Source of the DNA: a virus
Length of the DNA stretch: 42,611 nucleotides
Virus record (IMG/VR): IMGVR_UViG_3300035698_015694
Location: 1 to 42,611 of that record
Strand: one strand, 5' to 3'
The notes beneath the pieces are model-generated. The model saw only the letters and a list, made by a program, of their open reading frames with translations. It had not been told where the DNA came from and searched no databases. Positions 724 through 41,001 of the stretch are shown here, piece after piece. The translations under genes were made by a program, and so were the position numbers. The stretch's first letter is position 1. Each line of letters opens with the position of its first letter.

Positions 724-1938
724 TTAAGCAAATTTATTTTCAAGTGATTTTAATCTTTCAAATTGTCTTTCATTTTCGCCAATTGCATAATGATTTTCGA
801 GCATTTTGGTAGACTTATGATTTGCCATTGCAGCTGCATCTTTCATAGATAATATAGCAACTGTTTCGTCTAAATTAGTGTGTTTTAAACTGTAAAAATC
901 GGCCGTTATTCCTAATTTTTCTTTTACATGTGTTCTCCATCGTCTGCTAATTTGTTCAGTTCTGATTTTATTTTCTCCTGGTTTCAAACCTTTTGAAAAA
1001 ACAAAATCAGATTTATTGCCACCGAAAGTTGCGCGCTGCCAAAGAACAACTGCATTGTTTTTAATAACGCGATCAACCCAAGTGTATTGTTTACCTTTTT
1101 TTATCAAAACTTTATATTTTTGTTGTTGTAAATTGACATCACTGATTTTTACGCTTAAAAGTTCTGTAATACGTCCACCAGAATGAAAGAAAATAATTAA
1201 AAATAACCAAAAATCAGGAAAGTTTTCTCTTAAATGATTATTAACTAATTCCCGTTCTTGTACAGAAAGAGTCTCTCTAATAGATTTTATTTCAGTACGT
1301 TTCCTGATGTCTTTTATAATGTTGTTTTCAACTGCCTCAAATTCTAGCAATTCTCTAAAAATCAACTGTAAATAACATCGGTATTTATTGAATTTATGTC
1401 CAGAAAATTTACCGTCTGTTTTTTCTAAATTATCAATAATAAAACGAATGTGCTTTCTCCTAATATCTTTGATCATAAGTTCATCATATCGCAACTGCTT
1501 TGCTGATTTTTTGAAATGAATCAATATAAGACGAATGTCATTGTTAGTTGTTTCTGCAACATCCAATTTATCATATACATAGTCCAAAGCATCTAAAAAA
1601 TAAGTGTTTGGACCAAGTTCTGAATCTAGTTGAGGTTTCAAAATCGGCTCAATCATAAATTTTTTGGTAATTGGATTAAATCCTTTTTCCTCAAAAAGTT
1701 TAGGTATTTCCTGCAATAGGTATTTTGCTGCAGATTTTCTTTCTTCAACAGTCTTAAATTTGTTCAATTTTTTCCTAAAAGGAAATCCTTTTGGATACTT
1801 ATCCTTAAATAATGGATCGTAAAAAACACATTGAACATACCAATTAGCAGAAAGTGCTTTTTTTCCTGTAATAGTTTGCCAGTTTTCTGGGGATACCCAT
1901 GCATCAGTGCATGAGCAATCAAAAGGTAGTGATTTCAT
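724..1938 (-). CDS. int: Tyrosine-type site-specific integrase
   Basis: At 404 residues it has the usual length of Bacteroidetes phage and transposon integrases. The N-terminal 100 residues are an arm-binding region, residues about 105-210 a SAM-like core-binding domain, and 225-395 the catalytic domain. Catalytic residues visible are R256 (GGRITELL), K352, H374 (MANHKST) and the nucleophile Y384 (ENHYAIGE). The usual HxxR box is Y349-S-L-K352 followed by H353-T, so the first His is replaced by Tyr and the Arg by Lys. That variant occurs in Bacteroidetes recombinases. The protein integrates and excises the phage through the tRNA-derived site at about 2047-2088. The gene reads away from that site, with its start about 110 bases from the core. 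Confidence 0.93.
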   Translation of the reverse strand: MKSLPFDCSCTDAWVSPENWQTITGKKALSANWYVQCVFYDPLFKDKYPKGFPFRKKLNKFKTVEERKSAAKYLLQEIPKLFEEKGFNPITKKFMIEPILKPQLDSELGPNTYFLDALDYVYDKLDVAETTNNDIRLILIHFKKSAKQLRYDELMIKDIRRKHIRFIIDNLEKTDGKFSGHKFNKYRCYLQLIFRELLEFEAVENNIIKDIRKRTEIKSIRETLSVQERELVNNHLRENFPDFWLFLIIFFHSGGRITELLSVKISDVNLQQQKYKVLIKKGKQYTWVDRVIKNNAVVLWQRATFGGNKSDFVFSKGLKPGENKIRTEQISRRWRTHVKEKLGITADFYSLKHTNLDETVAILSMKDAAAMANHKSTKMLENHYAIGENERQFERLKSLENKFA

Positions 1939-2922: not shown

Positions 2923-3573
2923 TTAAAATAAATGACTTGAGGCTTGTACTCTAAAAATAAAGAGGATGCTTTTTATCATTATCTGTTGTGGCGGAAATTC
3001 ATCTTTTTTTGAATCAGTTGGCTTGCTAATTAAGGAGTAGTGTTCGTTGTCCTCTCCTTTTGTAATGATTTTAATCATCCGTAAATTATCATTAGTAACA
3101 ATTGCATAAACTTCTCCAAATGGAAAAAACTCTTTCCAATTTAGTAATCTAACCAGTCCGACAGCATCGCCATGACATATTACCTTGGCCATACTTTGTC
3201 CTGAATTTCGAACAACAAAATCACACCCAGAAAAAAAAGGATGACTTATGTATGAATTTGGCGCCACAGATTGGTTGTTTTCAACCTCTAAAAAACTTGA
3301 TGTAAAGTCAACATCATAATAAGGAACTCCTTTTGATTCTTTGATATACTTCTCTTTTGCATCTTTAAAATAATTAACAGACGGTAAGGATTGATTTTTA
3401 TCATTTCGTGCATTATTTAATACCAACTCCAATATTGGGTATTTTGACGCTGGTATATTTTCCCCGCGTTCCCAGTTTATAATTGTATTTCCTGAAACTC
3501 CAACTAAAGTGGCAAATTCTTTTTGAGTTAAACCTAAGCCTTTTCGCTTACTTCGTATTTCTTTTGAGTCCAT
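2923..3573 (-). CDS. CI-like repressor, HTH plus S24 (LexA-type) domain
   Basis: The 216-residue protein has an N-terminal HTH at residues 4-55 (GLTQKEFATLVGVSGNTIINW) and a C-terminal S24 peptidase-like domain at about 100-215. The catalytic Ser is S127 in NSGQSM and the Lys is K168 in RMIKII, both present, so RecA-stimulated self-cleavage is plausible. The VPYYDVDF segment before the S24 domain is common in Bacteroidetes repressors of this type. It is transcribed away from the rightward early promoter, and its start is 55 bases from that promoter's -33 box. It is the best candidate to bind the TACACAATATTGTGTA-type palindromes. Confidence 0.88.
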   Translation of the reverse strand: MDSKEIRSKRKGLGLTQKEFATLVGVSGNTIINWERGENIPASKYPILELVLNNARNDKNQSLPSVNYFKDAKEKYIKESKGVPYYDVDFTSSFLEVENNQSVAPNSYISHPFFSGCDFVVRNSGQSMAKVICHGDAVGLVRLLNWKEFFPFGEVYAIVTNDNLRMIKIITKGEDNEHYSLISKPTDSKKDEFPPQQIMIKSILFIFRVQASSHLF

Positions 3574-4526: not shown

Positions 4527-4748
4527 ATGGCAAAGATACACATTTTGCAAAGACTTGTTAATACCAAAATTAACAGCGATAAGTCGAAAGAAATTTTAGG
4601 GACTATTATAAGAAAAGAGTTTGACCAAACTAAAGACGAAGATCGAGCTTTCGAACTTCTTTTTTTGGCTCTTAAATGGAATCTTCCTCAATTCAATGAA
4701 ATGATTGATGATTACGAATTACATGACTTTAAATGGTTTGTACCATGA
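4527..4748 (+). CDS. Small early protein, unknown function
   Basis: A 73-residue protein, mostly helical, with a repeated hydrophobic/acidic pattern and a C-terminal HDFKWFVP. The start is an ATG preceded by an A/T-rich leader. Its stop overlaps the ATG of the following 32-residue membrane protein (ATGA), so the pair is probably translationally coupled. No domain is recognised. Confidence 0.55.
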   Translation: MAKIHILQRLVNTKINSDKSKEILGTIIRKEFDQTKDEDRAFELLFLALKWNLPQFNEMIDDYELHDFKWFVP

Positions 4749-4843
4749 AGGCAATACTCACAATGCTAATAATCGCAGTAGTATTCGGAATATTATTAAC
4801 GCTTGCTTTCCTGTGGTGGGCGGTAAAACAAAACAAAAAATAA
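4745..4843 (+). CDS. 32-residue membrane protein
   Basis: The short frame starts inside the last codons of the upstream gene. Residues 4-26 are almost wholly hydrophobic (ILTMLIIAVVFGILLTLAFL), followed by WWAVKQNKK, a basic end expected in the cytoplasm. It is the second of three tiny early membrane proteins coupled to neighbours through overlapping start and stop codons. Its role is unknown. Inner-membrane phage exclusion or a regulatory peptide are possibilities without direct support. Confidence 0.55.
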   Translation: MKAILTMLIIAVVFGILLTLAFLWWAVKQNKK

Positions 4844-20183: not shown

Positions 20184-20771
20184 TTAAAACTTACCGCATA
20201 CTCCACAGTCAGTTGATTTCATATCAGTAGGTACTTGCAGACATCCCGCACACTTTCGCTGGAAGTTTCGAAGGGAGTATCTCATCGCTTTTCGCTTTTC
20301 CTTATCTGTTAAAGGATATTTTCCATGTCTATTTCCTCTGATATTATTCTTTACGTCAATAAGTTCCTTTTTTGCTTTAAACTCATTTATTTTAAGGGGT
20401 GGGTATTTTGCCAAATTCTTGTAATCGTTTGATAAAGCGGAACTATCGTTAACAGATTCCAAATAATAAGAATAGGAATCATCCCATTTGTAAGTAAGCG
20501 ATAAAGCTGACAAAACAAGTTGTAATATCGAAATTGGAGCAGCGATAAACAAAATAGTATTTAAATTTTCTGGTGAAATATTATAAGACGTCACAATACC
20601 TCCAATTAATATCGGAACAACTATTCCAAGAAAATTATTGGCTTTTAAAAACTTACCAATTCTCTGACCTCTCTTTGAATAAATATATGAAGCGCCAAAT
20701 AAATGTAGTGAATCGTTCCAGCAGTCTTGTCTTATTTCATCGAAATTACTTATTTGGATTTCAGCGCTCAT
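20184..20771 (-). CDS. SLATT-like two-TM protein, mobilome CxxC-x11-CxxC family
   Basis: The 195-residue protein has a helix before the membrane region, then two predicted spans at about residues 46-64 (FLGIVVPILIGGIVT) and 72-92 (TILFIAAPISILQLVLSALSL). A cytoplasmic helical part follows, and the C-terminus has CAGC (C174, C177), an 11-residue spacer and CGVC (C189, C192). The exact CxxC-x11-CxxC layout together with the 2TM core matches the family called mobilome CxxCx(11)CxxC protein, related to SLATT effectors. SLATT domains are predicted pore-forming or membrane effectors in defence systems. It is read leftward, opposite to its neighbours, from its own promoter. Confidence 0.72.
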   Translation of the reverse strand: MSAEIQISNFDEIRQDCWNDSLHLFGASYIYSKRGQRIGKFLKANNFLGIVVPILIGGIVTSYNISPENLNTILFIAAPISILQLVLSALSLTYKWDDSYSYYLESVNDSSALSNDYKNLAKYPPLKINEFKAKKELIDVKNNIRGNRHGKYPLTDKEKRKAMRYSLRNFQRKCAGCLQVPTDMKSTDCGVCGKF

Positions 20772-22656: not shown

Positions 22657-22716
22657 TAACTAATTTAAAATCAAACAGATAAACAAATCCGACATTAACT
22701 CTCGGCTTTTATTGAA

Positions 22717-22757
22717 TAACATATTTTGCTATTTAATAACATAATTTGTTACATTTG
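22717..22757 (+). promoter_or_regulatory. Promoter with tandem TAACA-N5-TGTTA operators, copy 1
   Basis: TTG at 22726-22728 and TACATTTG at 22750-22757 are 21 bases apart. Two 15-bp palindromes lie over them: TAACATATTTTGCTA (22717-22731) and TAACATAATTTGTTA (22737-22751), with a 5-bp gap. Operator 1 covers the -33 box and operator 2 touches the -7 box. The same geometry recurs at 25048-25088 and 40961-41001. This copy drives the ParB-methyltransferase and terminase small subunit genes. Confidence 0.78.
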
Positions 22758-25028: not shown

Positions 25029-25047
25029 TATTTTTTTCAATATTAAA

Positions 25048-25088
25048 TAACATATTTTGTTAGTTAATAATAAATTATGTTATTTTTA
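25048..25088 (+). promoter_or_regulatory. Promoter with tandem TAACA-N5-TGTTA operators, copy 2
   Basis: TTG at 25057-25059 and TATTTTTA at 25081-25088 are 21 bases apart. The palindromes are TAACATATTTTGTTA (25048-25062) and TAATAAATTATGTTA (25068-25082), again separated by 5 bp. The -7 box ends in A rather than G. It should drive the structured RNA, the tRNA and the head genes. Confidence 0.75.
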
Positions 25089-25100
25089 CAAAGTATAAAG

Positions 25101-25449
25101 ACATCAAACACTTGCAAAATCATATCGGATAAGAATGTGGAATAATCCGGTGTTTAAGAAGTTCCACATAGATTGATGTTTTTTCAAACGGGTAAGTAGC
25201 TCAGGTGTAATCAGGTATAAATCTACTGCGATTATTAGCACAAAGGTTAGAGCGCTGAATAAAAACAAATTTAAGGTCTGTGTACAGGATGCTTTCGTAT
25301 TGAAAGAAGTTTGTTTTCCAGAGGTCATTGGTTCGACCCCAATCTTCTCCACAACAACCCAGAAGGAAGGACAATCGAAAGATTTGTTTTATATGTTTAG
25401 CTAGCAAATAAAATAAATTTTCTCAAAAGTACAATGAGATAGATTGTCC
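25101..25449 (+). ncRNA. Structured non-coding RNA with an enlarged tRNA-like domain
   Basis: No convincing gene exists between 25029 and 25547. Paired segments are dense. ACATCAA (25101-25107) pairs TTGATGT (25173-25179). Within it ATGTGGAA (25135-25142) pairs TTCCACAT (25162-25169), and AAACAC (25106-25111) could pair with the loop sequence GTGTTT (25150-25155) as a pseudoknot. Next is the cloverleaf-like domain described separately (25190-25351). Then GGACAATC (25369-25376) pairs GATTGTCC (25442-25449) around two hairpins (25382-25418 and 25421-25439). It is preceded by a promoter and followed by a tRNA. Large phage RNAs near tRNAs, such as GOLLD or ROOL, are the nearest concept, but no match is claimed. 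Confidence 0.65.
25190..25351 (+). ncRNA. tRNA-like cloverleaf with inserts in the D and anticodon loops
   Basis: GGGTAAG (25190-25196) pairs CTTCTCC (25344-25350) with one mismatch and one G-U, and the discriminator is A25351. The D-stem is GCTC/GAGC (25199-25202, 25250-25253). The T-arm ATTGG-TTCGACC-CCAAT (25327-25343) is perfect. The anticodon stem is CTGAA/TCCAG with one mismatch. The D-loop holds a 40-base insert with its own helix (TAATC/GATTA). The anticodon loop holds a 50-base insert where AAAACAAA (25262-25269) pairs TTTGTTTT (25310-25317). No standard anticodon loop remains, so it is not a normal tRNA. Confidence 0.6.
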
Positions 25450-25457
25450 GATGAAAT

Positions 25458-25531
25458 AGCAAGGTAGAGCAGTTGGTCAGCTCGTTGGTCTCATAATCCA
25501 AAGGTCAGGGGTTCAAATCCCCTCCTTGCAA
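25458..25531 (+). tRNA. Initiator-type tRNA-Met (CAT), phage encoded
   Basis: A complete cloverleaf of 74 bases. The acceptor is AGCAAGG/CCTTGCA with an A1-A72 mismatch, the D-stem is GAGC/GCTC, and the anticodon stem TTGGT/TCCAA closes the loop CTCATAA. The variable loop is AGGTC and the T-arm AGGGG-TTCAAAT-CCCCT. The unpaired 1-72 position, the A11-U24 pair and the loop CTCATAA are features of bacterial initiator tRNA. Only two of the usual three GC pairs of the anticodon stem are present (the third is T-T). CCA is not encoded, as is usual for Bacteroidetes. Confidence 0.85.
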
Positions 25532-25547
25532 CTAAAAACAAAAAACA

Positions 25548-40895: not shown

Positions 40896-40960
40896 TCTTT
40901 TTTAGTAATTTTTTAGAATAAATTTAAAATCATAAAAAGTAATATTCGATAATTACTAAA

Positions 40961-41001
40961 TAACAAAATATGTTAGTTGTTAATATATTATGTTATTTTT
41001 G
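40961..41001 (+). promoter_or_regulatory. Promoter with tandem TAACA-N5-TGTTA operators, copy 3
   Basis: Palindromes TAACAAAATATGTTA (40961-40975) and TAATATATTATGTTA (40981-40995) are again 5 bp apart. The -7 box is TATTTTTG at 40994-41001, and the base triplet at the -33 position is ATG (40970-40972) rather than TTG, 21 bases upstream. It precedes the final tail gene. Confidence 0.72.

Follow-up and report, generated by a model that had tools for sequence, protein, structure and literature searches.

Why phages carry tRNA genes, and odd "stable RNAs" besides, has been an open question for decades. In this paper, we ask a narrower version of it: what use might a phage have for an RNA that keeps the body of a tRNA and lacks the arm with which a tRNA reads codons? 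For a class of RNAs without an anticodon, with a kept body and with heads free to vary, codon supply cannot be the explanation. We know of no family in which hypervariable heads take the place of the anticodon arm on an otherwise fixed tRNA body. A search of the open-access literature (subscription papers and preprints being outside its scope) returned no account of phage tRNAs that lack an anticodon and carry variable heads.

The locus

The window (that is, the whole stretch of DNA analyzed, a viral record 42,611 bases long) belongs to a temperate phage with an integrase (724-1938, minus strand), an S24-type repressor (2923-3573, minus strand), TerL, an SPP1-type portal and capsid E. Its nearest named relatives by TerL are the Cellulophaga phages Nekkels_1 and Nekkels_2 (60%), Nekkels_1 being a member of the Assiduviridae. 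The plus strand has no ORF of 50 aa or more from the end of terS (25028) to the start of the next gene (25548), and on that strand and at that threshold, the stretch is indeed gene free, as a preliminary description made from the letters had it; on the minus strand, ORFs of 82 aa and of 68 aa overlap the RNA region. What follows terS, in order, is a pseudoknotted RNA (module II), an enlarged cloverleaf, an 81-base RNA (module III) and a tRNA-Met (Table 1).

Table 1. Features of the RNA region downstream of terS
Feature	Position	Strand	Details
AT-rich promoter-like repeat	25029-25092	+	follows terS; putative promoter
Module II, pseudoknotted RNA	25101-25179	+	four helices; homologues L034:3523-3601, L040:3277-3355
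Module II outer helix	25101-25107/25173-25179		7 bp
Module II helix	25110-25113/25159-25162
Module II helix	25126-25130/25145-25149		CGGAT/ATCCG
Module II helix	25135-25142/25162-25169		ATGTGGAA/TTCCACAT; 25135-25141/25163-25169 in the four-helix model
tRNA-like element	25190-25351	+	tRNA-Ala body, D-loop insert, no anticodon arm; 29-member alignment
Acceptor	25190-25196/25344-25350		6 of 7 pairs
D-stem	25199-25202/25250-25253		4 of 4 pairs
D-loop	25203-25249	+	47 nt; inserted hairpin 25208-25212/25230-25234 before GG 25245-25246
Head	25254-25326	+	73 nt, with a long helix 25262-25269/25310-25317; replaces anticodon arm and variable loop
T-stem	25327-25331/25339-25343		5 of 5 pairs
Discriminator	25351		A
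Module III	25369-25449	+	81 nt; closing stem GGACAATC/GATTGTCC, 25369-25376/25442-25449
tRNA-Met (CAT)	25458-25532	+	ordinary tRNA; ARAGORN; Rfam tRNA, 63.6 bits

The preliminary description had placed correctly each element that it named and had seen in them a structured RNA locus, built around a tRNA-like cloverleaf with helical inserts and ending beside a complete tRNA. That picture stands: ARAGORN finds the tRNA-Met, and when homologues are compared, both the flanking RNAs and the cloverleaf covary. Homologues lacking covariation, which the description had named as grounds for its refutation, are not what we found. Among its suggestions for what the locus might be, a new phage RNA or a tRNA mimic is the best. 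It missed the likeness of the body to tRNA-Ala, the full absence of an anticodon arm and the wide spread of such elements among viruses on several tRNA bodies.

A promoter of the locus's own, also part of that description, is plausible: the AT-rich repeat is kept after terS in most relatives, although exact matches to the Bacteroidetes-type promoter consensus are unenriched in the window (5 observed vs. 2.7 expected). Similar AT-rich copies, with the character of inverted repeats, lie at three intergenic places in the window (22710-22751, 25029-25092 and 40954-41000), a possible family of phage promoters or operators. The tRNA-Met, which is all that ARAGORN reports in the region, has an A x A mismatch at 1:72 and a D-arm of GAGCAG..AGCTCG, and by these features it looks initiator-like; it would be uncommon for a phage to carry an initiator tRNA. 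It recurs in the same cassette near terS of L009, L036, L040 and L041.

Module II has the same length, 79 nt, in its two homologues. Two of its four helices cross, 98.6% of cells are paired over the three sequences, and 10 of 23 pairs are changed on both sides, a degree of covariation equalled by none of 500 shuffles; when the register is slid, pairing falls to 28-43%. Drawn as it is from three sequences, this covariation is strong for the outer helices, and the crossing helix varies at one pair only; it supports the earlier reading of a 7-bp outer helix, an 8-bp hairpin and a possible pseudoknot. The 8-bp stem that was said to close module III is supported too, with six of its eight pairs changed on both sides among 10 distinct sequences and 0 of 500 shuffles equal; the inner hairpin of this module was read by eye. 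In the window and in L013, L070, L118 and L121, module III comes after the tRNA-like element; in L011 it comes after tRNA-Tyr, in L083 and L124 after tRNA-Phe, in L051 between tRNA-Trp and tRNA-Leu, and in L048 ahead of the tRNA-like element. Because RNA modules are reshuffled among relatives in this way, we regard the terS-terL gap as a variable RNA cassette.

A few other things caught our eye. A further small module around GTTTC..TTTTA (L139 after 1150, L048 at about 4010, L035 at about 690; all by eye) has closing stems that differ and yet pair: GCTGAA/TTCAGC, GCCAGA/TCTGGC and GACAAAC/GTTTGTC. Two noncoding stretches recur in the terS-terL cassette, one beginning GGAACCTTTCGG (L034 3740, L046 4186, L048 4184) and one beginning AGCTCGGAAAGACG (L011 3902 and L132, minus strand, 174). 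Finally, phage tRNA-Leu(UAG) genes in L026 (3139-3212) and L051 (3341-3414) are only 74 nt long and lack the usual long variable arm.

A tRNA-Ala body without an anticodon arm

All four arms of a tRNA had been recognized in the cloverleaf. The acceptor, D and T arms are there; the anticodon arm is not, at its own place or anywhere else in the molecule, and CCA is absent from the encoded element. Little of this can be learned from the window copy by itself. Folded alone, the cloverleaf does no better than its shuffles (z 0.66), and the same holds for the energy of its head (z -0.14); the whole 519-nt region has a minimum-energy structure with a z of -3.56, in which the cloverleaf does not appear. 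ARAGORN calls no gene here, and an Rfam search of E up to 10 did not report the window copy as a tRNA. In the Rfam search of the window, GOLLD, ROOL and tmRNA, three of the families proposed for checking, gave nothing at the gathering score, RF00005 was the sole match, and at lax E values, everything apart from the tRNA-Met lay far under threshold; over 18 related loci, the matches were RF00005 and one DUF805b. The evidence for the cloverleaf comes from its homologues.

We gathered these from terS/terL relatives plus one genome scan and aligned 29 distinct elements, 70-165 nt in total length; L022, with a divergent D-arm and, by eye, no anticodon arm, stayed outside the 29. A model of ours, R1, was searched on 100 sources and dropped as a criterion of membership; canonical tRNAs also match it. 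Across the 29 members, 98.1% of cells in the frame of acceptor, D-stem and T-stem are paired. Both sides are changed in 23 cells, which none of 500 shuffles equals, and four of the five T-stem pairs covary. The commonest pair fills 193 of 203 acceptor cells and 115 of 145 T-stem cells. G3.U70 is present in all 29, A73 and G2-C71 are each present in 28, and G4-C69 is present in 27; the D-loop consensus, GGTTA, lacks G20. The window copy has U4 x C69 as its one acceptor mismatch, where contig L005, which is 98.7% identical, has G4-C69. The Rfam tRNA model scores above threshold for 9 of the 11 clade members submitted (the window copy falls below), and ARAGORN misnames two elements, L031 as tRNA-Pro and L102 as "tRNA-???". 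The 3' half is common to the element and to the host tRNA-Ala genes L136 and L140, so the body is most likely derived from tRNA-Ala.

What sits on this body is another matter. Between D-stem and T-stem lie 14-74 nt of mostly unrelated sequence, which we call the head; identity within the family is 0.97 for the 5' part of the body, 0.81 for the 3' part and 0.30 for the head vs. 0.25 when shuffled. We defined a canonical anticodon arm as five pairs closing a 7-nt loop with U33 and a purine at 37, and we allowed it anywhere in the head. By this definition, an arm is present in 372 of 500 tRNAs called by ARAGORN (our positive control) and in 1 of 29 clade heads vs. 1.7 in shuffles, with none in the window. 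With such an arm wanting, we do not class the element as a tRNA (RF00005).

The D-loop, 8-9 nt long in normal tRNAs, is normal sized in many members. In others, it carries either a small hairpin capped by a GNRA-type loop (L026, L034, L133, L134 and L139) or a large one (the window, L005, L008, L035, L049, L093 and L121). Aligned with L035, the window insert has two pairs changed on both sides, and none of 100 column shuffles equals this. Taking D-loop and head inserts together, 4 of 15 families have double changes reached by no more than 5 of 100 column shuffles (the window/L035 D-loop, two pairs; the GNRA hairpins, two; the type A heads, six; and L263/L267, two), and the other eleven do not. 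We also folded heads, from 23 of the 29 clade members and from 73 rows of the wide set described below (duplicates included), all with at least six acceptor and four T-stem pairs. The clade heads differ little from their shuffles (mean z -0.43, one below -2); those of the wide set are lower in energy (mean z -1.15, 16 of 73 below -2, among the matches listed).

The same architecture in other viruses

Is this a peculiarity of one phage clade? An Ala-type pattern, in which the letters of the D-arm and T-arm are fixed and 32-62 nt are allowed between them, matches at least 120 stretches of viral contigs in IMG/VR. The 117 matches listed come to 110 unique ones, of which 83 have an acceptor of at least six pairs and a T-stem of at least four; 14 have an anticodon arm, and at least 69 elements with the Ala-type D-arm have a paired acceptor and no such arm. 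The acceptor played no part in choosing the 110 unique matches listed, and it pairs at 5.99 of 7 positions vs. 3.09 (SD 0.12) when permuted; 63 of them pair at all seven, on 61 different acceptors. In the 69 listed heads, our canonical arm occurs four times (1.9 shuffled). Position 3:70 in these 69 is G-C in 24, C-G in 15, A-U in 11, U-A in 11, G.U in 6 and something else in 2. With G3.U70 so scarce among the matches listed, alanine identity is a trait of the Flavobacterium clade and not of the class, and alanylation cannot be the general point of the class. An ARAGORN tRNA lies within 1 kb of 27 of the 73 Ala-type loci listed.

Leu-type elements in L011, L023, L041, L118 and the cultured Cellulophaga phage Nekkels_1 (record 4593-4756, with no feature annotated there) prompted a second scan. 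Among the matches listed, it gave 110 unique ones, of which 95 pass and 5 have an arm; Leu-type elements without an anticodon arm number at least 90. One body, AGTCAGG...CCTGACT, accounts for at least 71 unique elements in 50 loci, 15 of which hold two to four. In the 42 listed with this body and a standard D-arm, identity is 0.99 for the 5' part, 0.91 for the 3' part and 0.32 for the head (0.30 shuffled), and canonical arms occur in 2 of the 42 listed heads (2.2 shuffled). The D-arm and T-loop letters were part of the search pattern here and the acceptor letters were a selection, so it is head identity that makes the informative contrast. One head is also found on different acceptors (L219 vs. 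L042/L044). The AGTCAGG-body elements of L323 share their locus with a ribonucleotide reductase that is 74% identical to the enzyme of Flavobacterium phage immuto.

Arrays of four elements, with the AGTCAGG acceptor, different heads and some different D-arms, are seen in L385 (100-912), L379 (6686-8387), L387 (360-1446) and L397. A gene annotated as tRNA-Cys in phage immuto itself (20246-20331; L409 247-332), with an anticodon region that looks irregular by eye, is possibly another member of the class.

In the bacterial genomes we sampled, the elements are nearly absent, a prophage excepted. The Ala-type pattern found no element in 299 genomes from the genus to which Flavobacterium sp. UMI-01 belongs; its two matches, in G192 and G084 (L150 and L151), are both tRNA-Asn genes whose anticodon is intact and whose variable loop holds an 18-nt palindrome with the core CCGATAGCTATCGG. 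A pattern for the D-loop insert matched 1 of the same 299, near relatives of the phage's portal (28%) and of the gene after terS (36%), which makes this locus a prophage. The Leu-type pattern matched 1 of 118 genomes from across the phylum, in a tRNA-Leu-like sequence with hairpins. All of these patterns demand exact letters, so the bacterial controls are samples and not full surveys. BLAST of annotated phages with the region and the bodies gave, among the matches listed, ordinary tRNAs or short matches; those inspected include tRNAs or a tRNA cluster (L400, L402 and L403) and a tRNA-Leu-like fragment beside an integrase (L401).

What such an RNA might do

At the level of sequence, then, it is established that a tRNA-Ala-like body (an acceptor with G3.U70 and A73, a D-arm with GG in its loop and a T-arm) is conserved and covaries, that an exchangeable head has taken the place of the anticodon arm, that the D-loop often carries a second hairpin and that the same architecture stands on other tRNA bodies in many viruses. 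From here on, we infer, and at the last step we guess. Our main reading, to which we give a probability of about 0.42, is that the element is a nondecoding tRNA mimic of the phage, matured by the host, probably alanylated in this clade and carrying its head as an effector, with counter-defence as our guess at its role. The cloverleaf would be cotranscribed with the neighboring RNA modules and the tRNA-Met, trimmed by host RNase P and RNase Z and completed by the CCA-adding enzyme. Host AlaRS could then alanylate it in this phage clade, and the stable, tRNA-shaped and possibly charged body would present the head to some tRNA-handling partner in the host. A hypervariable head, exchanged on a body that stays fixed, is in our view the effector, and one that evolves against a host factor.

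Alanylation is the step that can be held up against known rules. The identity set for bacterial alanine, as listed in PMC9976931, consists of G3.U70, A73, G2-C71, G4-C69 and G20, with no anticodon element, so an RNA with G3.U70, A73, G2-C71 and G4-C69 is a candidate for AlaRS. We count it against alanylation that the window copy lacks G4-C69 and the consensus G20, two elements of that list. For Escherichia coli tRNA-Leu, the same paper gives A73 as crucial and the anticodon as not.

As for the opponent, counter-defence against tRNA-targeting immunity, by decoy or by inhibitor, is our leading idea and a guess. Known tRNA-directed immunity includes anticodon nucleases (PMC10264068) and Cas12a3, an enzyme that cleaves the tails of tRNAs and of which there is an example from Bacteroidetes (PMC12851939); Cas12a3 is a conceivable opponent of headed tRNAs. 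A more sweeping version would have viruses use headed tRNAs widely, with an invariant body for host maturation, charging or recognition and with hypervariable heads as decoys or inhibitors of tRNA-targeting immunity or of other host factors that handle tRNAs. The bodies seem to be Ala or Leu type in phages related to those of Flavobacterium and of other types elsewhere, with heads often several to a genome. That Ala and Leu bodies are used fits this version, because neither bacterial Ala identity nor E. coli Leu identity needs the anticodon (PMC9976931); even so, we would sooner bet against it than on it.

The main reading has a serious competitor, which we hold to be possible if improbable: the body may be a natural tRNA scaffold, a mere handle for maturation and stability, and the heads may be separate small RNAs (antisense, aptamer or protein binding) that act on phage or host genes and have nothing to do with tRNA-targeting defence. 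A fixed body under sequence-unrelated heads, several to a genome, a body identity that differs across viruses and companion RNA modules that are shuffled are all that one would expect of a scaffold; alone, however, it leaves unexplained why the acceptor is so much better conserved than the T-stem. Decay is a less probable story. The preliminary description had also allowed for a degenerate tRNA, which here would mean remnants of phage tRNA-Ala or tRNA-Leu with random insertions, and the mismatch in the window acceptor, the diverged D-stem of L022 and the terS-terL gap being variable cargo could be read that way. We disfavor it, as rather unlikely, because heads are swapped on a body that persists: bodies are 97-99% (5') and 81-91% (3') identical under heads at shuffle level, the T-stem covaries, insert positions are always the same, and acceptor pairing is kept on 61 different sequences among the matches listed.

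Three other readings deserve very little weight. If an intron in the anticodon loop were spliced out to give a working tRNA, one would be glad of the anticodon-stem halves that flank a hairpin (by eye) in a few wide-set members, L193, L239 and L260, but clade members such as L035, with only 14 nt, have no arm to restore, anticodon arms occur at chance frequency, and heads are wholly different between members. No better are the prospects of a tmRNA-like RNA whose alanylated body rescues ribosomes while its head encodes a tag. G3.U70 and A73 are as in tmRNA, and some type A heads (L011, L121 and L133) hold, by eye, an open frame of about 14 codons; L070 does not keep that frame, many heads, with 14-20 nt as in L013, L035 and L093, are much too short, the D-stem is normal, ARAGORN finds 0 tmRNA genes in 110 loci, and the window match to the tmRNA model is 7.9 bits vs. 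a gathering score of 47. The least probable of all is a packaging RNA or scaffold for the terminase, another suggestion of the preliminary description, which has the position between terS and terL in its favor. It is unsupported, because we did not find the element in some relatives that carry both terminase genes (L041, where the promoter-like repeat leads directly to tRNA-Met and a Leu-type element is carried instead, and L009, which has the tRNA-Met) and because the wider class sits at unrelated loci in unrelated phages, as beside the ribonucleotide reductase of L323. Two further ideas were rejected: an attachment site by reasoning, the integrase gene being more than 23 kb away and the 5' half conserved too, and an inverted-repeat mobile element because G3.U70 is a pair in RNA and not in DNA.

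The class may show how phages use the host machinery of tRNA maturation and charging for noncoding effectors, and it may reveal targets in tRNA-directed immunity. It is a testable family, present in cultured strains: Flavobacterium sp. UMI-01 has an element at L139:1054-1150, and Epilithonimonas arachidiradicis DSM 27620 has one at L135:989-1059 on the minus strand. Annotation misses or misnames such elements, as the window copy, L031, L102 and the Nekkels_1 element attest.

Comparison with known systems

The nearest kin of the phage element is tRNA-Ala (RF00005), with which it shares the acceptor with G3.U70, the D-arm, the T-arm and A73; unlike tRNA-Ala, it has an insert in the D-loop and no anticodon arm, and it cannot decode. 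In tmRNA (RF00023), too, an alanine-type acceptor and a T-arm go with a replaced anticodon arm, but the phage elements have a normal D-stem, are 70-165 nt long, have no consistent tag ORF and do not match the tmRNA model at threshold. The phage tRNAs that evade tRNA-targeting defence (PMC10264068) are likewise phage-borne bodies with an altered anticodon region; they keep an anticodon loop and decode, whereas the elements here have no such loop.

The stable RNAs C and D of T4 (species 1 and 2) are, by annotation, also phage RNAs inside a tRNA cluster. With a T-arm and a 3' strand that resemble those of a tRNA, T4 rnaC might be an old and unexplained relative, a weak suggestion: it matches model R1 at 25.5 bits (E 0.0034, 92 of 139 nt), where canonical tRNAs score equal or better, and it has neither acceptor nor head in common with the phage elements. 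In the open-access literature, we found no paper on it. A man-made parallel in design is the recombinant tRNA scaffold, in which an RNA of interest reportedly replaces the anticodon arm and the host matures and protects the product. That scaffold is artificial; the phage elements are natural, and they evolve.
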